DNA of 47,380 nt, taken from a virus. The notes below the pieces were generated by a model. That model was not told where the DNA came from, did not search any database, and saw nothing but the letters and a program-made list of their open reading frames with translations. The stretch lies in the IMG/VR virus record IMGVR_UViG_3300017917_000934, positions 1 through 47,380 of that record; one strand, given 5' to 3'. Made by a program: the position numbers and the translations under genes. Shown piece by piece: positions 4,231 to 46,046 of this stretch (the stretch's first letter is position 1; every line of letters starts with the position of its first letter).

Positions 4231-4238
4231 TATTTACT
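4231..4238 (-). promoter_or_regulatory. Late-type promoter octamer AGTAAATA
   Basis: Reads AGTAAATA on the minus strand, 21 nt before the ATG at 4209, with TAGGAT between. It overlaps the 3' end of the upstream gene (stop 4237). It departs from GATAAATA at the first two positions. Confidence 0.35.
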
Positions 4239-5415
4239 ATCGTTTGGCGCGAGGTTCTTGATCTCTGGTTGGGCGAATATCTGACACTGGTGTGCGCTGT
4301 GCTATGTCTTGTATTTTTTGATCTAAATCAACTTGGCGCTGTGCTGACGCTACTGCGTCTGCTTTAGTTTTTGCTGTGCTAGCACGTCCTTTGGCTAAAG
4401 TAACTTTCATAGCATTACTTTGTGTATCAGTCCAACTTGGAAAACTTACAGTCACTAACCCAGCACTGTTAGCCATATCTTCTGGTGTGCCAATATACAG
4501 AAATTTAGTTACGGCGCCATCCATAATGATAATGCCGTCAAACTCTTTTTGTTTTTTGTATTCAGTAAAACTAGCCTTAAGCATTTCTTTCTTAAGTTCT
4601 TGGCCGTTAATGTTACCTGCACTGTCCACTACCTTACTTGTAATTTGTTCTACAGGATAGTCCGGGTAGTGCATTTTTAACATGGCTGTCAAGGCTTTTT
4701 TTACCTTGTCCCCACTGTCAAAGTAATTGCTAAAAGAACTCATGTCTAATTTAGGATTAAAGTCTAAGGGATTTAGTTGTTCACCTGCTTTATCTGGCAT
4801 TAGTTCATGTAATATTGGTACAAATTCACGTTGAAAACGTCCTGCTAAACTCATACTACCTGCAGGGCCTAATCTACCATTTTCGCCTGCCTTAAGTTCA
4901 ACCTTAGTACCTGTGATATCCAAATCGCCTGGTGCGCCTCGACGGTTAACACTAGGACTCATAATGTCCAATAGATATTCACCCTTGCCCACGTCACCTA
5001 ATTCACCAATTTTACCAGAAATATCTTTGTACAATGTACCTTTAATTTTGTCAAATACAAATCTGTAATCACTGTCTACTATGCTGTCAAAACTATGTAT
5101 AGCACCTGGTGTTAACAATAATTTTTCGTCCAGGATACCATCTTTACTAAGTTTGTCTAAAAACTTGCGTACTTCTTCTTCAGGAATTTCTGCTTCGGCT
5201 AAAGCACGGAGAAAAGTATTACTTACGATGTCTTTGTACTTGCGAGCATCAGCAAAACTAAAAACATCTTTCTTAATACCGTAACGATTGGTAAATTTAA
5301 GGATATCCTTAAGATCACTTTCGTCAGGAATCTTTTCAATTTTAGTTTCGATTTCAGAACGAACTGCTTCAGGAGTTTCGTTTAATTGGTCTAGTTTATT
5401 AAGTATATCGCGCAT
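4237..5415 (-). CDS. Virion-type protein with PD-(D/E)XK-like motif (392 aa)
   Basis: No function is recognised with certainty. The N-terminus MRDILNKLDQLNE resembles other N-termini in this genome that end in (L/I)xE, the T4 prohead protease signal. Around residues 145-180 the segment KGEYLLDIMSPSVNRRGAPG then DLDITGTKVELKAGENGR places GDLD before VELKAG. This is the spacing of a PD-(D/E)XK nuclease core (D, then ExK). The C-terminal 60 residues are Ala/Lys/Gln-rich and probably flexible. Transcription probably starts at the octamer 7 nt before the ATG. No Shine-Dalgarno is present, so the mRNA would be nearly leaderless. Late expression and the N-terminal peptide suggest a capsid-internal protein. 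Confidence 0.6.
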   Translation of the reverse strand: MRDILNKLDQLNETPEAVRSEIETKIEKIPDESDLKDILKFTNRYGIKKDVFSFADARKYKDIVSNTFLRALAEAEIPEEEVRKFLDKLSKDGILDEKLLLTPGAIHSFDSIVDSDYRFVFDKIKGTLYKDISGKIGELGDVGKGEYLLDIMSPSVNRRGAPGDLDITGTKVELKAGENGRLGPAGSMSLAGRFQREFVPILHELMPDKAGEQLNPLDFNPKLDMSSFSNYFDSGDKVKKALTAMLKMHYPDYPVEQITSKVVDSAGNINGQELKKEMLKASFTEYKKQKEFDGIIIMDGAVTKFLYIGTPEDMANSAGLVTVSFPSWTDTQSNAMKVTLAKGRASTAKTKADAVASAQRQVDLDQKIQDIAQRTPVSDIRPTRDQEPRAKR

Positions 5416-5422
5416 GATAATG

Positions 5423-5430
5423 TATTTATC
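5423..5430 (-). promoter_or_regulatory. Late promoter octamer GATAAATA, 7 nt before ATG
   Basis: An exact GATAAATA on the minus strand overlaps the stop region of the upstream gene (5426). With T4-like spacing (octamer at -13 to -6) the start falls at 5417, only 2 nt before the ATG at 5415. No Shine-Dalgarno sequence can be seen. Confidence 0.7.
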
Positions 5431-13052: not shown

Positions 13053-15302
13053 TTATAAGCCTGCTAATCGTTTAATATCTTGTACGCTTTCGTATTTTGG
13101 TTCTACCGGATTGCCAAATTTGTCCATTACTTCGCCTTTGCCTAATTCTAAACGTGCCTTGAGATTTTCAATTCGATCTTCTAATTCATTTGCTTTTACT
13201 GTGTCGTGTTTAGACAATGCTTGTTGATATAGTTGCTCTAGTTTTTGTAATTGAGGACTATTTGCTGTACTTTGTTTATCTAAATATGCGTTACCTGCTA
13301 GCGCACCAACTAATGCAGCACCAGCACCTAATTTTTGTAACCCTGTTAGACCTTCTGACAGTGCTTGTATTATTTCTTCTTTGGTCTTGCCATATTTTGC
13401 CGTAAATTCTTCGTCTGTCAGTTCGCTAAGATCAATATCCATTTCTTTCATTCTTCCTTCCTCTACTTCCTCATGATCACACACACACTGATCCGCTGGA
13501 CGATCACAGGCATCGCAATAGGCCTGTTGTGCATGTGTTAAAGGGCTAGAACTGTCGGCAGGTGCTCTATAGCCATAATCTTCATCTAATTCAGGGTAGT
13601 CAACACCAACTTCACGGTACACTTCACGGACCATGTTGCTAATGTCGCTTGAGCCTAGTTCATCTACAGGTGCATGGAAACTTGCTACATCAAGTGAAGC
13701 ATTCATAACACCTTCTGGGCCTGCTTTTCTAAGTAATTCTGTATGTTGTTCAATATTGTTTAAGATTCTACGCACGATCGCTGATTGTATAGATTCAATA
13801 TTTGCTAATAAGTCGTCTTGATCATCTTCTTCGTATACATTACCATAACTGCCATAAGAACTTTCTGCAAGGTCTGCCGCTTTTTCTTCTGCCATGTCAC
13901 GTAATTCTGAATTTGAGTAACTTTGTGCCTTTAGAGAATCTAAGTTTAAGTAGTCCAAAAGTTCACTTCTACTCATATTTTCAATTGGTGTGTCGCCTGT
14001 GTGGCTTTCTGCTACTGCATCATCCATGTCACTATGATCAAGTTGATCGTATACATCTGGAAGATTGGCCTGTATCCAAGCCATGATTGTTTCTCTAGCG
14101 TCTGCGTCTGGGTCAACATTACTCAAATCTAATAATTGATCATAAAGTTCGTCATTGCCAATAATATTGTATAGTGCACCTGTAGCGTTTTCTGCGTCAA
14201 CACCAACAGGTAGTGGTTCTGCTAAAAGTTTTTCTAAATCAACTATTTGATCTTCTGTTTCTGGATATGCCCAAGTACCTTCACTTAGATTTGATGCCCA
14301 TCCTTCAAATGCCTCTGCAAATTTATTTGTTTTCTTCATACTATAAGCCTTGTATACTAAAGGTAACGCATCATCCATGCGTTCATTGTAACTGCGTTTA
14401 ACAAATCGTTCTCTTAGAGAGTCAACATCAACTTCTGGAATATAACTAGTGCTAGTATGAACAAATTGTTCAGCGCACTTGCGATAACCTTTAGGACCGC
14501 TCATACGATTTAGTGTGTCTTTTAATAGACCATGATATTCAAATGCGGCTTCTACCATACGCTGTGTTTCTTCGTCTTCAAATACACGACGCATCATAGC
14601 AATCTTAAAGTTTTTAAGTTTGCTGCATTCATCCGCCATTTCAGTAATGTGTTTGCCTAGATCATCGTGCGGGTCACCACCTTCTTGTACGTGGCGTGCC
14701 ATAGCACGTGCAAAACGCAGACTATTGTGTGGTAGTTTGATACGTTCGCCTAGTTCTGTTTCTAAGAAAATAGCACGAATTTTTCTAGCACGAGCACCTT
14801 TAACTTCTGGATTAACTTGGTCGCTGTGTCGTATAATAATACGCACTGGTCCGTCTTTTTCGTAACTACTACGACTAGTACCGTATAGTTTGCTTTCACT
14901 AATAACTTCGTCTTTATCGTAGGTACTGTCTGCTTTGCTGACCTGTTTGATATCACGAACTTTTAGTGTACTGCGTGTGATGTCGCGAGGTTCAAAACTT
15001 AATAGGTTACGTTTAGCAAATTCACGCAGTTCTTTTAAGAAGTTATACCAATCACGGCGTTGTTCATCACTTAGGTCATGGCTAATGTTTTTACTAAAGT
15101 AAACTTTAAGACTGATTTCGTCTACGATACTTATAGTAACGTTACCATAGTTATGACCATCTACAACGTAGTCAAAGTTGAAAAAACGTGCTCGCTCTGG
15201 ATCTTGTGTTGCGTTGGCTTCTTCGTCACCAAGGCTCACGTCCTCAAAACGATCGCGGATCTTTTCAAATAAACCTTCTGCTATTTTATCTATTTCTCTC
15301 AT
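13053..15302 (-). CDS. Large virion-type protein with zinc-knuckle-like motif (749 aa)
   Basis: Conserved in style among marine T4-like phages but without known function. The N-terminus MREIDKIAE ends in a prohead-protease-like IxE. The middle has the segment FEGWASNLSEGTWAYPETED followed by LPVGVDAENATGALYNIIGN, a pattern I associate with structural proteins of these phages. A cysteine cluster YCDACDRPADQCVCDH (C596, C599, C606, C608, H610) could bind zinc. A Gly/Ala-rich hydrophobic stretch (655-674) might contact a membrane. The protein ends in IKRLAGL, a motif shared with two other head-region proteins. It lies directly after gp17. The ATG has no Shine-Dalgarno and is exactly 5 nt from a late octamer, so a leaderless mRNA is predicted. 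Probably a head-internal or ejected protein. Confidence 0.7.
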   Translation of the reverse strand: MREIDKIAEGLFEKIRDRFEDVSLGDEEANATQDPERARFFNFDYVVDGHNYGNVTISIVDEISLKVYFSKNISHDLSDEQRRDWYNFLKELREFAKRNLLSFEPRDITRSTLKVRDIKQVSKADSTYDKDEVISESKLYGTSRSSYEKDGPVRIIIRHSDQVNPEVKGARARKIRAIFLETELGERIKLPHNSLRFARAMARHVQEGGDPHDDLGKHITEMADECSKLKNFKIAMMRRVFEDEETQRMVEAAFEYHGLLKDTLNRMSGPKGYRKCAEQFVHTSTSYIPEVDVDSLRERFVKRSYNERMDDALPLVYKAYSMKKTNKFAEAFEGWASNLSEGTWAYPETEDQIVDLEKLLAEPLPVGVDAENATGALYNIIGNDELYDQLLDLSNVDPDADARETIMAWIQANLPDVYDQLDHSDMDDAVAESHTGDTPIENMSRSELLDYLNLDSLKAQSYSNSELRDMAEEKAADLAESSYGSYGNVYEEDDQDDLLANIESIQSAIVRRILNNIEQHTELLRKAGPEGVMNASLDVASFHAPVDELGSSDISNMVREVYREVGVDYPELDEDYGYRAPADSSSPLTHAQQAYCDACDRPADQCVCDHEEVEEGRMKEMDIDLSELTDEEFTAKYGKTKEEIIQALSEGLTGLQKLGAGAALVGALAGNAYLDKQSTANSPQLQKLEQLYQQALSKHDTVKANELEDRIENLKARLELGKGEVMDKFGNPVEPKYESVQDIKRLAGL

Positions 15303-15307
15303 AGTAA

Positions 15308-15315
15308 TATTTATC
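15308..15315 (-). promoter_or_regulatory. Late promoter octamer GATAAATA, 5 nt before ATG
   Basis: An exact GATAAATA on the minus strand fills the 13-nt gap between the gp17 stop (15316) and the ATG at 15302. With T4 spacing the start site is the A of the ATG, giving a leaderless mRNA. No Shine-Dalgarno is present. Confidence 0.75.
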
Positions 15316-16887
15316 TTACATTATATAAAATGGCATAGGCTCAACAATATCTTCTAGGCTATCTTTCATAGTATAGTCTAACTGACTGTCAAAACTCTGC
15401 AAAACTTGTGCCATACGCACTATAAGCAACATACTCATAACCAAGTCATCTGTTTCGCCTGGTTTGGCCGCAAAACTAGCGTTATGCGCAACAAAGGTTT
15501 TTAGTTCAGATATAAGACTACGGCTTACTATAGTCATACGCTTGCTTTCAATTAGATTTTTTAGTTTAGCACAGGCGGCTATTTTTGATTTATTTGTAGT
15601 ATTGAATCCTTTGCGGAATCTACGACCACCCGAACTCATATTTCTAGGTTCACTTAAGAATATACCACGTATGTTTTCTTCACCTATTTCTGCTACACAA
15701 ATTAGTGCGGCTTCTCCTACTGTGTTGTTTTCTATTGAGTAGTAGATATTGTTTTGATTTACTGTTTCACTGATGTATTTGGTAATTTCTGTAAGTATAC
15801 CTACTTGCTGTTGTATGGGTGTGCGATTATGTTGCCACTCTGCTACCTGGCGGAATGTAGGTAATTCAAATACTTGAATACCTGCAGGGTCGCCACCAGT
15901 ACCTAAACTAGGGTCTAAGGCCACTGCGTAAGTGTATTGTGGTTCTGGCTTTTTATACCAGCGTACATGCCCTTGGCGTTCTATAGGATCTATGCCTGCC
16001 ATTTCAACTAAATGACTAGGATTGATTAGTGTTTCATCCCAAATAATAGATTCACAATCCCTCTCTCGACGGAAACGTTCATCACCTAATTGCGCACGTT
16101 GCTGTTCAGCCCACTTGTCATCACGATCTGGGTGCTCTTTCCAGTAACTTCTAAATGCTTTGAATCCATTTATACCTATTTCTGTAGGCTCACCATACTC
16201 ATCTACGCATTTGTTGGCGCCTTTCCATAGGGTAGCAAACTGGTCTTCATCACTGTTAGGTGTTGAAGTAATAATACATTTACCACCAGTTGCTAGTGTG
16301 GGACTAATAGAGGTCCAAAATTCTCGTCCTATGGTAGGGCGAACGAACGCAAACTCGTCACAGTATAGTAATGATATAGACATACCACGACCTGTGTTTT
16401 CTGTTGTTGTAGCACTTACTATACGACTACCATTATCAAAATCGATACTACCTTTGTTATAACTCACAGCACCTGCACGTATAAAGTCTGGTACGCTTTC
16501 ATAAGCGTAACGAATACGTTGCATGATTTCTTGTGAGCCTGTATATTTGTGTGCGGCAATTAGAATAGTTGAATCAGGCACAAACATGGCGTACCATAAT
16601 AGGTATCCTGCGGCTGACGTTGACTTACCTGTTTGCCGGGGCATTAGCGATATGCTATAGCGATAGTTATGATATGTATGGATTAAGCGTTTTTGATAGT
16701 CAAAGGGTTCATACAGCATACGTCCTTTTGTAGGGTGTTGTATGTAAAAGTAGTTACTCATAAAATATTCTGGACCTGTAACAGGATCCGAACACTTTAC
16801 GAATTCTTGTATTTGTGCCTGAGTAAAAGCCGTTTGCGTATGTGGCTTTTTAACTAAGACGTTATCTGTACCTTTTGCTGCTGCCAT
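15316..16887 (-). CDS. 17: gp17, terminase large subunit
   Basis: The packaging motor: an N-terminal ATPase translocates DNA into the prohead and a C-terminal nuclease cuts the concatemer. The 523-residue protein shows Walker A MPRQTGKST (82-90), Walker B SLLYCDEFA (D177, E178), the coupling motif TSTPN (207-211), and RNase H-like nuclease residues in ALDPSLGTGGDPAG (D325), IENN (E386) and GETDDLVMS (D480, D481). T4 gp17 is 610 residues; the N-terminus is shorter here. The start at 16887 has no Shine-Dalgarno but has TATAAGTA exactly 5 nt upstream. The small subunit gp16 is not adjacent, being five genes upstream. Confidence 0.95.
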   Translation of the reverse strand: MAAAKGTDNVLVKKPHTQTAFTQAQIQEFVKCSDPVTGPEYFMSNYFYIQHPTKGRMLYEPFDYQKRLIHTYHNYRYSISLMPRQTGKSTSAAGYLLWYAMFVPDSTILIAAHKYTGSQEIMQRIRYAYESVPDFIRAGAVSYNKGSIDFDNGSRIVSATTTENTGRGMSISLLYCDEFAFVRPTIGREFWTSISPTLATGGKCIITSTPNSDEDQFATLWKGANKCVDEYGEPTEIGINGFKAFRSYWKEHPDRDDKWAEQQRAQLGDERFRRERDCESIIWDETLINPSHLVEMAGIDPIERQGHVRWYKKPEPQYTYAVALDPSLGTGGDPAGIQVFELPTFRQVAEWQHNRTPIQQQVGILTEITKYISETVNQNNIYYSIENNTVGEAALICVAEIGEENIRGIFLSEPRNMSSGGRRFRKGFNTTNKSKIAACAKLKNLIESKRMTIVSRSLISELKTFVAHNASFAAKPGETDDLVMSMLLIVRMAQVLQSFDSQLDYTMKDSLEDIVEPMPFYIM

Positions 16888-16892
16888 ACTAT

Positions 16893-16900
16893 TACTTATA
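16893..16900 (-). promoter_or_regulatory. Possible late octamer TATAAGTA, 5 nt before gp17 ATG
   Basis: TATAAGTA on the minus strand differs from T4 TATAAATA at one base and lies 5 nt before the gp17 ATG, the same spacing as at 15302 and 27054. No Shine-Dalgarno is visible for gp17. Confidence 0.4.
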
Positions 16901-19718: not shown

Positions 19719-20354
19719 TTATTGTCCTTGTGCTGGGCTAGGGATCTTGTTTTGTTTGCTACCTACTGGACTTGCATCACCTGTAGGAACATCGTTAGTA
19801 GTTTTACCGTATGCTGGGTCTGCTTGTCCACCAATGGTTTTATCATTACCTTCTACTTCAAATTGTGCTGGCTTAGTTAATTCTTTAAGAATTGTTTCAG
19901 CACCAGCATAGGCTTTACTAGCGGCTTTTTGATCTGCGTCCTGTGCTGGATAAGGTTGTGTAAGTACATTTTCGCCTTGCACATATTCACGCAGTTCGCT
20001 TTCACCTTCTACATTCCAACGCCAAATTTCTTCTGGGTGGTACTTAGGCACAACCACAACTTGCGCTGCAGAACAGCCCAAACGTTCGCTAACAATAGCA
20101 CGTAACTGTGCATCATTTAATGGATATTTGAAACTTGCATCCATTAAAAATATTTCGCAATTAGTCATGCTTGGGAAGTCAATGTCGTTTGATTTGATTG
20201 GTAACGTTTTAGGGGCCGTAATGCTGTCAACAACATATCCTGCTAACCCTGCTTTTAACACATCCATCTTGTCCTTAGGGTCACAGTTTGCAACCTTAAT
20301 ACGGAATTCATAGAGTTTTTGTGTTTCACTAAGATATTGTAAAAAATTCTTCAT
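19719..20354 (-). CDS. Putative head protein with targeting-like N-terminus (211 aa)
   Basis: Function not recognised. The start MKNFLQYLSE-T again resembles a capsid-targeting peptide with an LxE cleavage site. Residues 15-125 look folded (alpha/beta: YEFRIKVANCDPKDKMDVLK, NCEIFLMDASFKYPL, AQLRAIVSERLGCSAAQVVV). The C-terminal 80 residues are Gly/Pro/Asn/Lys-rich and disordered, ending in PSPAQGQ. Residues 20-115 recall a small alpha/beta ligand-binding or ferredoxin-like fold. The gene heads the run between gp16 and gp17 and has its own late octamer 21 nt upstream. Confidence 0.6.
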   Translation of the reverse strand: MKNFLQYLSETQKLYEFRIKVANCDPKDKMDVLKAGLAGYVVDSITAPKTLPIKSNDIDFPSMTNCEIFLMDASFKYPLNDAQLRAIVSERLGCSAAQVVVVPKYHPEEIWRWNVEGESELREYVQGENVLTQPYPAQDADQKAASKAYAGAETILKELTKPAQFEVEGNDKTIGGQADPAYGKTTNDVPTGDASPVGSKQNKIPSPAQGQ

Positions 20355-20375: not shown

Positions 20376-20383
20376 TATTTATC
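20376..20383 (-). promoter_or_regulatory. Late promoter octamer GATAAATA (211-aa gene)
   Basis: An exact GATAAATA on the minus strand lies 21 nt before the ATG at 20354 and just after the gp16 stop. It is flanked by a 6-bp inverted repeat, AGTGTT (20371-20376) and AACACT (20387-20392). Confidence 0.7.
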
Positions 20384-20393
20384 AAAAACACTG

Positions 20394-20888
20394 TTATTTT
20401 TTGTTTAGAATTTGTTTTAGCAATTCATTACGGTCAATAACTACACCCTGACCGTCTTCTGCTTCTATTATACGTTCACCGTCATTTTTCTCTTCTGCTT
20501 GCTTGATCTGCATGTCTAAGCGTGCTTTTTTAAGTTGCAGATCAACCATACGTAATTTTTTATCCAACTTGGCTTGTTTGGCTGTGATAGCATGACCCAA
20601 CAGTGTGCCTGCTGTAGCAAGAATGTGTCCGCTAAAACGTGCTTCAACATTCATGCCTAGGTCAATTAGGTCTTGAAACTTTTCTTTGGCTAGATCGCTT
20701 AGTTCATCTAGTTCTTTGTCGCTAACATCTAGATCGTTTACATAGGGCAGAGCAGCGTCTATCTTATCAATAGCAGTGTCTACGGCCGCAATTATCTCAC
20801 GATTTTCCTCAATAGTATGTTCTGCTTCTTCTGCTGTTACTTCTTCAGCAGGTGGTAAATTAAATAGTTCTGAAAGTTTTTGTGTCAT
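20394..20888 (-). CDS. 16: gp16, terminase small subunit
   Basis: T4 gp16 forms a ring that recognises DNA and stimulates the gp17 motor. This 164-residue protein has the same length as T4 gp16. It starts with the marine-type motif KLSELFNLPPAEE and is almost wholly helical, with a long coiled-coil middle (QAKLDKKLRMVDLQLKKARL) and a basic C-terminus (ELLKQILNKK). The first 45 residues are acidic. There is no clear Shine-Dalgarno; GTTAAATA lies 7 nt before the ATG. It follows gp4 by 10 nt. In T4 gp16 is adjacent to gp17, but here five genes of about 3.5 kb intervene. Confidence 0.8.
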   Translation of the reverse strand: MTQKLSELFNLPPAEEVTAEEAEHTIEENREIIAAVDTAIDKIDAALPYVNDLDVSDKELDELSDLAKEKFQDLIDLGMNVEARFSGHILATAGTLLGHAITAKQAKLDKKLRMVDLQLKKARLDMQIKQAEEKNDGERIIEAEDGQGVVIDRNELLKQILNKK

Positions 20889-20895
20889 AGTATAC

Positions 20896-20903
20896 TATTT
20901 AAC
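20896..20903 (-). promoter_or_regulatory. Possible late octamer GTTAAATA, 7 nt before gp16 ATG
   Basis: GTTAAATA on the minus strand differs from GATAAATA at one position and has the same 7-nt distance to an ATG without Shine-Dalgarno as the octamer at 5423. Confidence 0.3.
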
Positions 20904-21859: not shown

Positions 21860-22858
21860 TTAACCGCTGCTGCCGCCTATTGCTTTTCGAATGCCTTGTT
21901 GTACAGTTGCGCTTGTTGGTGCAAACACAGTTCCAAAAGGATTTTGTCCACGTAGAATATCATTGCCTATACTGCTAAGGTCTAAACTAGGTGCTTGTTT
22001 TAACTGCACATCACTGCCTGTTAAGATGTTATAAACGTTAATACCGCCATGCACAACTGCACCTAGATCACCATTTTCAATTCCTCTAATAACACCTTGT
22101 ACTCCACCAATTGCTGCACCAGCATTACGTAATGGACTTGGCGTATTATCGTAGTGAATTACATCAAATCCTTGTACTGTACCTTGATCAACTGGACCAC
22201 TATCATATAGAACTGCTTCATAGTTAACCTGCATACTATGTTCCATTGGCGTATAATCGCCTGCTGTGTGTTGTCCGTGTGCAAAAAAGGTTATAGTTGG
22301 TCTAATTAAATTATATGATGTAAATCTTTTTTGATGCAGACTATATATTCTAATTGCTTTAATGTAATTCTGATTTCCGTCATCTTTAACAGGACTATAT
22401 CCCCAAGCCTGTTGTTGACGTTGTTTATATTTGCTGTCGTATCTATATGTTTCTTCAGTGCTTAAATAATCACTGTCTCTGTAATAGTATCTAAAATAAT
22501 TACCCCAAAAATCTAAAACTTTGTCAGCACTGTCATCGTGGAAGGTGATTACCACAGGATCATAAGTTACTCGTTCCTGTTGTACCATTTTACGATTATA
22601 GGCATTGTGTGTGCGATTTTGAATGTTAAACTTGGGTAATTGTACCTGTTTAGCCATTAAGCCAACTTCAATTTGACTGTTTTGATCTGTTTGTACAATT
22701 TCGTTTAAGTCAATAAACACATGATATAGATTGCTTAATTTAGGACTAAGTCTATATAAACCGTCAATAAAAGTACGTGCGCCATGTTGATAGTCGCGTA
22801 TGTTTTGATTTGGTGCTATAGACTGGAGTACACTACCCCATATATTGTTCTGTGCCAT
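21860..22858 (-). CDS. 54: gp54, baseplate tail tube initiator
   Basis: gp54 sits on the baseplate hub and starts polymerisation of the gp19 tube. The 332-residue protein (T4 gp54 is 320) has a tube-like domain: SPKLSNLYHVFIDLN, then VGLMAKQVQLPKFNIQNRTH with NRKMVQQERVTYDPVVITFH and DDSADKVLDFWGNYFRYYYR. This resembles the gp19 pattern, as expected because gp54 mimics the tube. The C-terminal 110 residues are Gly/Asn-rich and end in GGSSG. TCAGGACC-like spacing and a late octamer (22877-22884) precede the ATG. The neighbouring gene upstream is gp19, behind a terminator. Confidence 0.85.
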   Translation of the reverse strand: MAQNNIWGSVLQSIAPNQNIRDYQHGARTFIDGLYRLSPKLSNLYHVFIDLNEIVQTDQNSQIEVGLMAKQVQLPKFNIQNRTHNAYNRKMVQQERVTYDPVVITFHDDSADKVLDFWGNYFRYYYRDSDYLSTEETYRYDSKYKQRQQQAWGYSPVKDDGNQNYIKAIRIYSLHQKRFTSYNLIRPTITFFAHGQHTAGDYTPMEHSMQVNYEAVLYDSGPVDQGTVQGFDVIHYDNTPSPLRNAGAAIGGVQGVIRGIENGDLGAVVHGGINVYNILTGSDVQLKQAPSLDLSSIGNDILRGQNPFGTVFAPTSATVQQGIRKAIGGSSG

Positions 22859-22876: not shown

Positions 22877-22884
22877 TATTTATC
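22877..22884 (-). promoter_or_regulatory. Late promoter octamer GATAAATA (gp54)
   Basis: An exact GATAAATA on the minus strand lies 18 nt before the gp54 ATG, with ACAGGAC between. It follows immediately after the gp19 terminator. Confidence 0.75.
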
Positions 22885-23642: not shown

Positions 23643-26600
23643 TTACTGAATCGTTAAAGCCGCGCCAGTGTTTTGTAAACGTACTGGAATATAGATAAAC
23701 TCAATTGCTTTAACTGGTTGTATAGCAATATCAACCCATAACTCATTAGCATCAATACGTGCTGGTGTGTTATTTGTTGTATCACACACTACCAAGAAGT
23801 CATAGATACCACGTTTAGCAACTAAGTCGTTAAACACTGCATCAAATGCTGCTTTAACTTGATTACGTGTAATAGTATCGTTTGGTTCAAATATAAACGG
23901 TGCAGCCACTTGTGCTAATACTGTACGTAGGTAAACTACTAAACGTGCAACGTTAATTCTATCTAGTGCAGAAGTTTGGCTGTAACGTGTTTTTTGACCG
24001 TATACTACTAAACCAACACCTGGTAATACAGTGAACGGATTAACGTCATTTGCGTACAAGATATCACGTAGACCGTTAGTTACACCAATACTTACGTAAG
24101 TATTGTCGTTGTTTCGATCAATGTAACCAATGCTTGACACGTTGTCAATTACACCACGACGTACACCTGCTGGTGCAAACCACGGATAACTTACTGCATC
24201 GCTACGAATAAGTGTACGCAACATGATGTGAGTTGGTGGAACAACTACACTGTTACCGTCTAAGTTAGTTGCTAAACCACTTGGATAGTAAACACCTAAG
24301 TATTCACTACGGCTCACTAGACCTTCTTCGCCATTATCTGCGGCCAAGTTAGCATTACTTGCCCAAGCATTTAATCCTGTGCTGTCAGATGCTAAATCCA
24401 TTGGAGTATCACCAAGGATAAATGCTGTGTTTAGACGATCGTTATTTAAAGTGATCATGTCTTGGATCAACTCTGGATAACCTGGTGTAGCAATTACGTT
24501 AAACTGTGTAGCCTCTTCACGTAGTGCAGTGCTAGAAGCAATAGCAGCCTTCATAGCCTCAACTACAGTATTACGTTGTGCTTTGTAACCAAAGTATGGA
24601 ACGCCTGTTGTTGGGTCTTCACCGCTGAAACTTACCCACGCATCTGCTTCTGTTGCACTTACTACAGCCAACTCAGCGTCTGTAAAGTAATTTGCTTTGA
24701 AGCGTTTTACGTTATAACCACTACGACGTGTGTTAAACAATAATGTACCGCGAGCGTATAGTTGGAAATCAGGTGCATCTGGATCTAAGTGATCACTTGT
24801 TAACAAACTAGTAATTGTCGGCAATGTATCTGTAATGATGTTTAAGTTGCCTGTAGCAGACCAACGTGCATCTGCAAACAAAATACCATCTGAACTGTCA
24901 TTGTCTGTATTATCAATTAAGTCCCAGGTTGTACCGTTGTAACGATATAGTACTGGGAAGTTAGCCAAATCACCTGTGTCAATCCAAAGGTCACCTGGAA
25001 CTAATTGACTGCTACCATCGCTTTGTGTAACTGGTTGACTAGCACTCATAATTACACCGTTAGGATCAGTATTAGTAAGATCATAACCGCGTGCATCGTT
25101 GCTTACGTTTTGATAACCTTTCCAACCTGTACCATCGTGCATCATAACATCAACTTCAGTAGGATCACTGTAGTACCACATTGTATTTTCTGCAGGATTG
25201 CTGAACGGAGCAGTATCACCATAGAAATATGTCAACGGTGTCCAAGGACTTGCTAGGTAAACAGCGCCTGCGGACAATGTTTGCACTTTATTATCAGTTA
25301 ATAATCCTGAAGTTGCCCATGGTGTACCTACTAGGTTTGTAATTTGGATTGTGCCGCCTGCTAAGTGACGTACAAAAATTTGTCCGCTTGCATTAAAGCC
25401 GGCAGTAATGTTTGGTAGTCCTGCACTTAAAATACTAGCAACAAACGCACTAGCAGTTGTACCTGTAATTGTACAAGTAGCATTTGCTAAAGTTGCACTG
25501 TTTGGCACACTTACATCTAAACGGAAACTGTCATTGTTAGTATAAGTTGCGCTACCACCTGCTACAGTACCAGTAATTGTCAAAATACCTGTTACATTTT
25601 TAATATATGGTCTAAAAGACAGTGTATCTGATGCTTGTGAGTCATATTTTACATATAATGCACCAGCGGCTAATCCAGCGCCGCCAGCAATAGGATCTAA
25701 ACCGTTAATTGCTGCAGCATCATTTAGATATAACGGTGCACTTAACTGTGTCCATGTTTCTGTATTAGCACTGTATTCTTTAATTGCCCAGTTAGCACCG
25801 TTGCCACGTGCTGATGTTTTTAACCAAATACTGTCGTTTGGGCGAGGTGTTACGTCTGATCGTCTCCAAGCCGGTTCATTTGTGTTTAGTGCAAATGATA
25901 TAGTTGGACCATTGTAAGTGTATGTGTTACCACCATTGGAAATAGTTGCAAAACTAACAGTTGATGATAGCAAACCTAAGTTAGCCACACAGTCAACGTT
26001 ACTACCTAATAACACATTACCTCTAGTAATTGTTAGAGTACCGTCTGTACTTGTTGCAGTATCAATAACACCGCGTAAATTACCTGCTGCGTTACTATAT
26101 AAAATTGTTGCGCCATTTGCAAAAAGTTCAATTTGATTTGTTGCGTTAACACGAGCACTTACGCCAGGTAATGTTGCCGCATTAATTGCACTAACCGCAG
26201 AACTAACTGTAGTACCACTTACTGTAACAATGTTACCGTTAATAATAATCTTACTACCAGCAGTTAGTGTTGGGCTTGCGGCAGAACCTGTAGCAGTTGG
26301 TACATATGATTTCCAATCATCGCTACCAACTAATGCCCACTCATTGTCATAACCTTTGTAATAAATTGGGTTGCTAGAACTTGTAGCAACAACCGCGTAT
26401 GTACCTACAGCACCAAAAGTATTTGCAGGAACGCCGTTTACAACATAGTCAGTATCTGTTATAACTGTGATGCTTTGTGCTTGGAATCCTTCTTCCCAGT
26501 TCCAAGCATACACACCCCAATTAGTATTACCAGTGTCTAACCAGTAAGTTCCATCTGTTGGTTCACCTGTTGGGCGTGTACTTGTTCCTTCTAATTCTGA

Positions 26601-26948
26601 AAGATTTACGTTAGCACGTTGTACATATAATGTATTTGTTACACCCAACGCTGAATAAGCGGCTAACAAACCGTATTCATTTAATTGGCTACCATTAACT
26701 GGATTACCTGCGGCATCAGTTTCAAAGAACGGATTACCAAAAATGTTAACTAGATCACGTTGACTAGTAATTGTTAGAATTTTTTCTGCGTTAGCAATAG
26801 TTGTACCTGTGGCCAATGTACCACTAGGTGTTAGTTTATCTTGTCCGGTTGCAATCAGCACAAAGGGCACTGTACCTGCTTGTGTAGATACGTACTGGCT
26901 TTGATCAATAATGGTAACTGATACGCCTGGTGAAGTTAATGATGCCAT
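23643..26948 (-). CDS. 18: gp18, tail sheath protein (large, with inserted modules)
   Basis: The sheath contracts to drive the tube into the cell. The protein has 1101 residues against 659 in T4. The ends match the sheath: the start ASLTSPGVSVTIIDQSQYV and the C-terminal domain from about 740 on, including WFAPAGVRRGVIDNVSSIGY, GLRDILYANDVNPFTVLPGV then GLVVYGQKTRYSQTSALDRI, and the final IEFIYIPVRLQNT. Residues about 125-720 are added. They contain four copies of a P-x-(D/E)GT-x-W-x-D-T...Y-x-NG-x-x-W module (near 128-150, 370-400, 585-612, 650-677) and two related beta modules (about 230-300 and 472-545). The insert probably decorates the outside of the sheath. AGAGGAAT precedes the ATG. 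Confidence 0.93.
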   Translation of the reverse strand: MASLTSPGVSVTIIDQSQYVSTQAGTVPFVLIATGQDKLTPSGTLATGTTIANAEKILTITSQRDLVNIFGNPFFETDAAGNPVNGSQLNEYGLLAAYSALGVTNTLYVQRANVNLSELEGTSTRPTGEPTDGTYWLDTGNTNWGVYAWNWEEGFQAQSITVITDTDYVVNGVPANTFGAVGTYAVVATSSSNPIYYKGYDNEWALVGSDDWKSYVPTATGSAASPTLTAGSKIIINGNIVTVSGTTVSSAVSAINAATLPGVSARVNATNQIELFANGATILYSNAAGNLRGVIDTATSTDGTLTITRGNVLLGSNVDCVANLGLLSSTVSFATISNGGNTYTYNGPTISFALNTNEPAWRRSDVTPRPNDSIWLKTSARGNGANWAIKEYSANTETWTQLSAPLYLNDAAAINGLDPIAGGAGLAAGALYVKYDSQASDTLSFRPYIKNVTGILTITGTVAGGSATYTNNDSFRLDVSVPNSATLANATCTITGTTASAFVASILSAGLPNITAGFNASGQIFVRHLAGGTIQITNLVGTPWATSGLLTDNKVQTLSAGAVYLASPWTPLTYFYGDTAPFSNPAENTMWYYSDPTEVDVMMHDGTGWKGYQNVSNDARGYDLTNTDPNGVIMSASQPVTQSDGSSQLVPGDLWIDTGDLANFPVLYRYNGTTWDLIDNTDNDSSDGILFADARWSATGNLNIITDTLPTITSLLTSDHLDPDAPDFQLYARGTLLFNTRRSGYNVKRFKANYFTDAELAVVSATEADAWVSFSGEDPTTGVPYFGYKAQRNTVVEAMKAAIASSTALREEATQFNVIATPGYPELIQDMITLNNDRLNTAFILGDTPMDLASDSTGLNAWASNANLAADNGEEGLVSRSEYLGVYYPSGLATNLDGNSVVVPPTHIMLRTLIRSDAVSYPWFAPAGVRRGVIDNVSSIGYIDRNNDNTYVSIGVTNGLRDILYANDVNPFTVLPGVGLVVYGQKTRYSQTSALDRINVARLVVYLRTVLAQVAAPFIFEPNDTITRNQVKAAFDAVFNDLVAKRGIYDFLVVCDTTNNTPARIDANELWVDIAIQPVKAIEFIYIPVRLQNTGAALTIQ

Positions 26949-27040: not shown

Positions 27041-27048
27041 CATAAATA
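27041..27048 (+). promoter_or_regulatory. Late octamer CATAAATA, 5 nt before ATG
   Basis: CATAAATA on the plus strand is exactly 5 nt before the ATG at 27054. With T4 spacing the start site is the A of the ATG. No Shine-Dalgarno lies at a useful distance (AAAGG is about 20 nt upstream). Confidence 0.6.
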
Positions 27049-27053
27049 CTAGT

Positions 27054-27404
27054 ATGGAATATAGAAAATTATGTCAAGTTTGTGGCAAAAAGCCCTGTGC
27101 AGTCAATTATAAGATGTGGGGTAAGACCTATTATCGTACTCGCTGTGACAGTTGCATACGCAAAAAGCGAAATAAGTCTGCACCTGTACCTAGTTGGCAT
27201 AAGGTAGGATACAAAAAGAAACCGCACTGTGAAAAGTGCGGCTTCAAAGCAAAGTACAAAGAACAATTATTCGTCTACTATATTGACGGTAATCTTAATA
27301 ATAATAGTTTATCTAACTTAAAAACAATCTGTGCTAACTGCCAGTTTGAAGTAGCAAAAGAGGGTCTTGGGTGGCGTCAAGGTGATCTAGTTCCGGACTT
27401 TTAG
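27054..27404 (+). CDS. Degenerate HNH-like zinc protein (116 aa)
   Basis: From the ATG at 27054 the protein has four cysteine pairs: C7/C10, C31/C34, C59/C62 and C93/C96. The last two bracket an HNH-type core KEQLFVYYIDGNLNNNSLSN then LKTICANCQ. In active HNH nucleases the first core position is His and a His usually follows the last Cys; here they are Tyr (Y75/Y76) and Gln (Q97), so catalysis is doubtful. It may be a DNA-binding remnant or a virion/regulatory zinc protein. The upstream TTG (27027) is less likely because the late promoter lies between. Its last 71 bp overlap the dNMP kinase gene on the other strand. Confidence 0.65.
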   Translation: MEYRKLCQVCGKKPCAVNYKMWGKTYYRTRCDSCIRKKRNKSAPVPSWHKVGYKKKPHCEKCGFKAKYKEQLFVYYIDGNLNNNSLSNLKTICANCQFEVAKEGLGWRQGDLVPDF

Positions 27405-29284: not shown

Positions 29285-29326
29285 ATTATCCTGTTACCAA
29301 GTATTTATCGATAGTAACAGGATAAT
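29285..29326 (-). promoter_or_regulatory. Late promoter inside an inverted repeat (gp13 switch)
   Basis: ATTATCCTGTTAC (29285-29297) and GTAACAGGATAAT (29314-29326) are perfect 13-bp arms. The 16-nt loop holds an exact minus-strand GATAAATA at 29302-29309. The promoter-proximal arm contains the gp13 ribosome binding site (ACAGGAT). RNA reading through from the early operon can fold and hide it; RNA started at the octamer lacks the upstream arm. Confidence 0.7.
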
Positions 29327-31033: not shown

Positions 31034-31041
31034 GATAAATA
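31034..31041 (+). promoter_or_regulatory. Late promoter octamer GATAAATA (gp14)
   Basis: An exact GATAAATA on the plus strand lies 21 nt before the gp14 ATG, with TTAGGAC between. It is back to back with the minus-strand early promoter at 31000-31028, so early and late transcription diverge from one short region. Confidence 0.75.
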
Positions 31042-44561: not shown

Positions 44562-44597
44562 AATAATCCAACCTTTACACTATTTATCTGGATTATT
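44562..44597 (-). promoter_or_regulatory. Late promoter inside an inverted repeat (971-aa fibre)
   Basis: AATAATCCA (44562-44570) and TGGATTATT (44589-44597) are perfect 9-bp arms; the loop ends with an exact minus-strand GATAAATA (44581-44588). The downstream arm includes the TGGAT ribosome site. The arrangement is the same as at gp13. Confidence 0.65.
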
Positions 44598-46038: not shown

Positions 46039-46046
46039 TATTTATC
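46039..46046 (-). promoter_or_regulatory. Late promoter octamer GATAAATA (222-aa gene)
   Basis: An exact GATAAATA on the minus strand lies 20 nt before the ATG at 46018. Imperfect arms (GTTT/AAAC and TATC/GATA) surround it, a weaker form of the gp13 arrangement. Confidence 0.7.

Follow-up and report, generated by a model that had tools for sequence, protein, structure and literature searches.

Between the stop codon of gp17, the large terminase subunit gene, and the ATG of the following gene at position 15302 lies a gap of exactly one octamer and five bases. The octamer resembles the late promoters of phage T4, and the arrangement raises the question of whether such a promoter can sit directly on a start codon and how the resulting mRNA would be translated. 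The window, meaning the whole 47,380-base stretch analysed here (IMG/VR record IMGVR_UViG_3300017917_000934), belongs to a T4-like myovirus and is probably a piece of a jumbo phage genome, with relatives that reach 354 kb. It codes for gp17, tail sheath, tail tubes, and head-closure and neck proteins, together with UvsX, UvsY and a gp32-type SSB. The sheath gene (23643–26948) is unusually long, with 1,101 amino acids compared with 659 in T4, and the sheath family that it matches best spans about 915 positions. The 10-kb stretch around gp17 has no DNA-level match among named phages; by gp17 protein, the nearest are PA5oct and its kin (54%), followed by the Sinorhizobium phage Phosso and the Agrobacterium phage Atu_ph07 (approximately 50%). 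IMG/VR holds hundreds of relatives, of which the best 80 share 69–90% of gp17, and a search for relatives in bacterial genome contigs, made for host inference, found none.

The first-pass annotation had listed five octamers placed five or seven bases before an ATG (hereafter N5, N7 and so on), and every one of these strings is present at its place. Three have N5 spacing: GATAAATA-TTACT-ATG on the minus strand (octamer 15308–15315, ATG 15302); TATAAGTA-ATAGT-ATG before gp17, also on the minus strand (16893–16900, ATG 16887), with its ATAAGTA core kept in relatives; and CATAAATA-CTAGT-ATG on the plus strand (27041–27048, ATG 27054), between divergent genes. Two minus-strand sites have N7 spacing, namely GATAAATA-CATTATC-ATG (5423–5430, ATG 5415) and the octamer variant GTTAAATA-GTATACT-ATG (20896–20903, ATG 20888). 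As had been claimed for the three N5 sites, none of the five carries a Shine–Dalgarno (SD) sequence: AGGA, GGAG and GAGG are absent from usable positions close upstream, and a ‘GAGGA’ upstream of 5415 sits beyond −20. Open reading frames were called simply, from the first ATG and with a length of at least 50 amino acids; for the four minus-strand genes, no other possible start lies between this ATG and the preceding in-frame stop codon. The frame at 27054 has a TTG 27 nt upstream, yet its relatives begin at the ATG.

The products of these genes agree only in part with the proposal that the class includes both terminase genes and internal proteins. The identity of gp17 (15316–16887, minus strand; predicted leaderless) is firm, with ATPase and RNaseH-like nuclease domains and Pfam Terminase_6N and Terminase_6C matches above cut-off. 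The supposed gp16 (20394–20888, minus strand; predicted leaderless or with a 2–3-nt leader) is a 164-amino-acid protein that is not recognisable as T4 gp16, which we rejected at an hhalign probability of 0.2% with a 92-row profile; it belongs to phrog_16202, a family of unknown function. The 749-amino-acid product of 13053–15302 (minus strand; predicted leaderless), whose orthologs begin MREI(N/D)KIAE..., matches phrog_13484, ‘virion structural protein’, and nothing places it inside the head. A relationship to T4 gp18 or gp20 was rejected, as no similarity was found; PA5oct gp279, encoded by the gene right after PA5oct gp17, is a structural protein detected by mass spectrometry (MS). The remaining two genes encode a 392-amino-acid protein of no recognised function (4237–5415, minus strand; predicted leaderless or with a 2–3-nt leader) and a 116-amino-acid protein with weak, below-cut-off HNH similarity (27054–27404, plus strand; predicted leaderless).

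The octamer–ATG arrangement is real, but the window alone is only suggestive, and the relatives decide. Two of the 14 NATAAATA sites in the window are followed by an ATG at N5, where 0.23 would be expected, and octamers with one mismatch show no over-representation; so small an excess could by itself be chance co-occurrence in an AT-rich genome. We therefore turn to six related records, whole or partial, chosen to avoid recounting one operon (1.16 Mb, 1,383 ATG genes), with expected counts from dinucleotide shuffles. In these, NATAAATA lies N4–7 before the first ATG of 47 genes compared with 2.9 expected, the mode being N5 with 25 genes; it lies N8–15 before only 3 (5.0 expected), and N16–26 before 83 (7.9 expected). 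The short peak does not depend on gene calling, since an ATG follows NATAAATA at N5 in 29 cases against 4.8 expected when genes are ignored. Permuted AT-rich motifs give no N5 peak of this kind, and octamers are near zero ahead of internal in-frame ATGs of the same genes.

The same bimodal spacing is seen across the 80 related loci together with the window: the distance from ATAAATA to the first ATG is N5 in 55 cases, N7 in 23 and N4 in 13, it is never N9–12, and a second group appears at N18–22. With a looser motif (NTAAATA or ATAAGTA), the N4–8 class comprises 105 genes in 66 families; these loci are related by descent and the counts are not independent, a dependence that the 66 families and repeated spacing switches lessen but do not remove. 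In this broad clade, a phage-specific late promoter appears to sit on the start codon of numerous unrelated genes. Each of the five window genes recurs with short spacing in relatives, the check that the first-pass annotation had proposed: N4–7 spacing is found in 54 of 72 orthologs of the 749-amino-acid gene and in 6 of 8 orthologs of the gene starting at 5415; the gene at 20888 is short-spaced in 48 of 92 orthologs, with SD in 0 of the 48; and the 116-amino-acid orthologs in G005, G006 and G007 share this start, with N5 spacing in two of them and N4 in the third. A spacing of ‘exactly 5 nt’ is too strict a description: although N5 is the most frequent value, N4, N6, N7 and N8 also occur commonly, so a leader of 0–3 nt is the safer prediction.

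Conservation at individual genes points the same way. In the gp17 orthologs nearest the window, ATAAGTA (−6 to −12) is almost invariant, with a mismatch of 0–0.06 compared with mostly 0.4–0.8 in its flanks, and this variant, in place of ATAAATA, is kept across many relatives (window 16893–16900; L001–L032); it may set a lower strength for the gp17 promoter. Octamers that are kept in orthologs whose remaining upstream sequence differs, the shuffle counts and the N5 peak obtained without gene calls lead us to reject chance, to which we give almost no credence.

Because the caller simply took the first ATG of each frame, the N5 ATGs could in principle be miscalled, the real starts being downstream internal codons with SD sequences. 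The coding evidence makes this very improbable. In the orthologous proteins, conservation extends from residue 2, and substitutions are of the coding type from codon 2 onwards; in codons 2–26 of the 749-amino-acid family, 105, 16 and 305 differences fall at codon positions 1, 2 and 3, respectively.

Short spacing goes together with loss of the SD sequence. SD 4-mers occur in 5% of N4–8 genes, in 61% of N16–26 genes and in 35% of other genes. Within families that contain both classes, 7 of 260 short-spaced members have an SD, compared with 101 of 144 long-spaced members; when a gene family switches spacing, the SD accompanies the long form. The excess at N4–7 is specific to ATG (63 compared with 19.3 expected), with GTG (5 compared with 14.9) and TTG (9 compared with 28.2) depleted, which fits the need of leaderless mRNAs for AUG (PMC4611024), although the AT-rich context may account for part of the GTG and TTG depletion.

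The long-spaced arrangement, GATAAATA-N18–22-ATG, mostly with an SD-like sequence, was missed by the first-pass annotation and is present at six sites in the same window. Three of these belong to the SD-led class with AGGA: N18 before ATG 22858 (octamer 22877–22884, minus strand), N21 before ATG 29280 (29302–29309, minus strand) and N21 before ATG 31063 (31034–31041, plus strand). The other three, all on the minus strand, fall in the leadered class, with GGAT only at N21 before ATG 20354 (20376–20383) and a weak GGAT at both N22 before ATG 44558 (44581–44588) and N20 before ATG 46018 (46039–46046). For the gene at 20354, 74 of 95 orthologs are long-spaced and 56 of these 74 have an SD. The tail-tube-like gene at 21860–22858 lies directly after a run resembling an intrinsic terminator; its spacing switches among relatives, being short in the orthologs of L013, L046, L057, L061 and L070 and long in those of L001, L014 and L018.

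Genes without SD sequences could also be translated by coupling, with the octamers serving as internal late promoters and ribosomes starting mainly by termination–reinitiation on polycistronic mRNA, so that coupling replaces the SD. Gene order gives this reading some room: 48 of the 105 short-spaced genes begin 0–30 nt past a same-strand upstream gene, as do those at 15302, 5415 and 20888 in the window, and many window sites lie 10–36 nt past an upstream stop codon, where read-through mRNA and coupling may also play a part. However, for another 36 of the 105 the upstream neighbour is divergent or distant (>100 nt). These genes therefore cannot rely on coupling, yet they still lack an SD (present in 1 of 36). 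They include the gene at 27054, where coupling is absent because the nearest upstream gene points the other way. Only 2 of 30 divergent short-spaced genes have another NATAAATA within 200 nt. Coupling also leaves the fixed N4–8 spacing and the near-empty N9–15 zone unexplained. We reject it as the sole explanation on the strength of the 36 genes and, as the main route of translation, regard it as unlikely, even if it is the strongest of the alternatives.

We consider it likely that T4-type (gp55) late promoters are fused to start codons in these phages and yield late mRNAs that are leaderless or have leaders of 0–3 nt, beside an SD-led class. The octamers would be T4-type late promoters read by a phage gp55-like sigma factor. 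Consistent with this, the gp55 family (phrog_234) is found in five of eight clade records, of which several are fragments, and in each of the five named phages; this result comes from the relatives, the window itself being a fragment. In the short class, with the octamer ending 4–8 nt before the ATG, the first transcribed base would be the A of ATG or lie at most about 3 nt before it, and translation would proceed by recognition of the 5′-terminal AUG and not by SD pairing. In the long class, the same promoter 16–26 nt upstream would give a leader of about 10–20 nt, usually with an SD. The near-empty N9–15 zone would then separate two arrangements that work: a start without any leader, and a leader with room for an SD.

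The start-site prediction follows from promoter geometry. The T4 late octamer spans −13 to −6 (PMC1524935), in agreement with the position from which the first-pass annotation had placed +1 on the A of ATG at N5; given this position and the gp55-family genes in relatives, N5 would indeed do so. In the long-spaced promoters of the clade, A is favoured at the fifth and seventh bases after the octamer and not at the sixth alone, so 5′ ends are predicted anywhere between the A of ATG and a position about three bases upstream, and the exact +1 may be other than that A. Among genes at N7–N8 the sequence is frequently NNNNACT-ATG, compatible with a leader of 3 nt. From these positions we infer promoter activity, the leaderless start and initiation by ribosomes on such transcripts. 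The earlier idea of a ‘deliberate leaderless class’ survives as a distinct, conserved, SD-less set of genes with a T4-type octamer ending 4–8 nt before the ATG, shorn of the exact N5 and of its both-terminase and internal-protein membership.

Unstructured AT-rich starts are able to recruit ribosomes without an SD. The A/T-rich octamer could accordingly be an RNA-level, SD-independent ribosome-binding element on longer transcripts and not the gene's promoter. Two features speak against such an element: its sequence is that of a late-promoter octamer and not generic AT-rich sequence, permuted motifs giving no N5 peak, and the identical octamer stands at 16–26 nt in the SD-led class. We judge it improbable, marginally more so than coupling, and favour promoters fused to start codons.

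The proposed arrangement combines elements that are each already known, T4-type late promoters and leaderless mRNAs; the fusion of promoter to start codon appears to be the new part. The octamer core is shared with the T4 late promoters (gp55/gp33/gp45; TATAAATA), a system known to lack a conserved −35 element and whose gp55-family sigma gene has its counterpart in relatives within the clade. The clade differs from T4 in that the first base of its octamer is mostly G, A or C and not T, and in having a large class directly on the start codon, of which T4 has none at N4–8. Genes with leaderless mRNAs are known either as isolated examples in phages or as a feature of particular hosts, Thermus and Actinobacteria among them. 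Many middle and late transcripts of the Thermus phage phiYS40 are leaderless (PMC3594737), and leaderless genes are common in its host as well (PMC3160421); by comparison, the clade has a T4-type promoter, represents an unrelated phage group and carries SD-led late genes beside the predicted leaderless ones. An accepted sign of bacterial leaderless genes is a −10-like box about 10–12 bp before the start, which the TA-led genes have instead of an SD (Zheng et al. 2011; PMC3160421); that box is the host −10 element, whereas the clade's box is the phage late-sigma octamer. Leaderless initiation on a 5′-terminal AUG is established for lambda cI (PMC3160421, PMC4611024), but genes of this type are single cases, unlike a genome-wide promoter-spacing class. 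In our search of the open-access literature, no paper described late mRNAs without leaders in T4-like phages or start codons fused to T4-type late promoters, and a search there for PA5oct transcriptome work yielded only papers that mention PA5oct.

A gp17 tree with 81 representatives shows short-spaced genes without an SD in most lineages of a broad clade, whose gp17 is approximately 52–90% identical to that of the window; independent-pair tests on this tree run in the right direction, with too few pairs for significance. The class is absent from the T4 and S-PM2 genomes and from the gp17 regions of Atu_ph07 and eleven GAP32-like phages. In Phosso, the octamer downstream of gp17 is at N21 and comes with AGGAG; in PA5oct, CTAAATA lies there about N26 upstream, with only a weak TTGGAT. 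By sequence, these appear to be promoters of the same kind in another position. PA5oct has two annotated candidate short-spaced starts, gp356 and gp262, the latter an MS-detected structural protein with TATAAATACGTGTATG, which makes gp262 a candidate test case in a cultured phage.

Phage-encoded translation factors gave nothing firm to which the class could be linked. A bS21 gene is present in the three longest clade records (G001:111737–111970, G002:232944–233180 and G003:175131–175283), the G002 copy itself having TAAATA at N7, but also in PA5oct (170955–171161) and Atu_ph07. IF3 was found only in Atu_ph07 and GAP32, both without the short-spaced class, and not in the clade records; a search for an S1-domain protein among such factors found none. 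We put forward only tentatively that this clade of uncultured jumbo T4-like phages might use two modes of late translation set by promoter–AUG spacing, one leaderless, including the large terminase, and one SD-led, and that the two sets could come under different control when late infection alters ribosomes or initiation factors, perhaps with the involvement of phage bS21. If fused promoters are confirmed, they would account for some of the genes that lack an SD in certain huge phages, supply gene finders with a precise start-site rule for such phages, and offer a natural test in which leaderless and SD-led translation can be compared within a single infected cell and with a single promoter type.

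Some divergent gene pairs in the relatives have octamers that are face to face or interleaved within about 25–50 bp, both N4–6 from their ATGs: G002:309447(−)/310427(+), G006:30932(−)/31592(+), G007:42448(−)/43139(+), G001:127525(−)/128593(+) and G002:279106(−)/279643(+). Each of these tiny intergenic regions would hold two predicted leaderless promoters.
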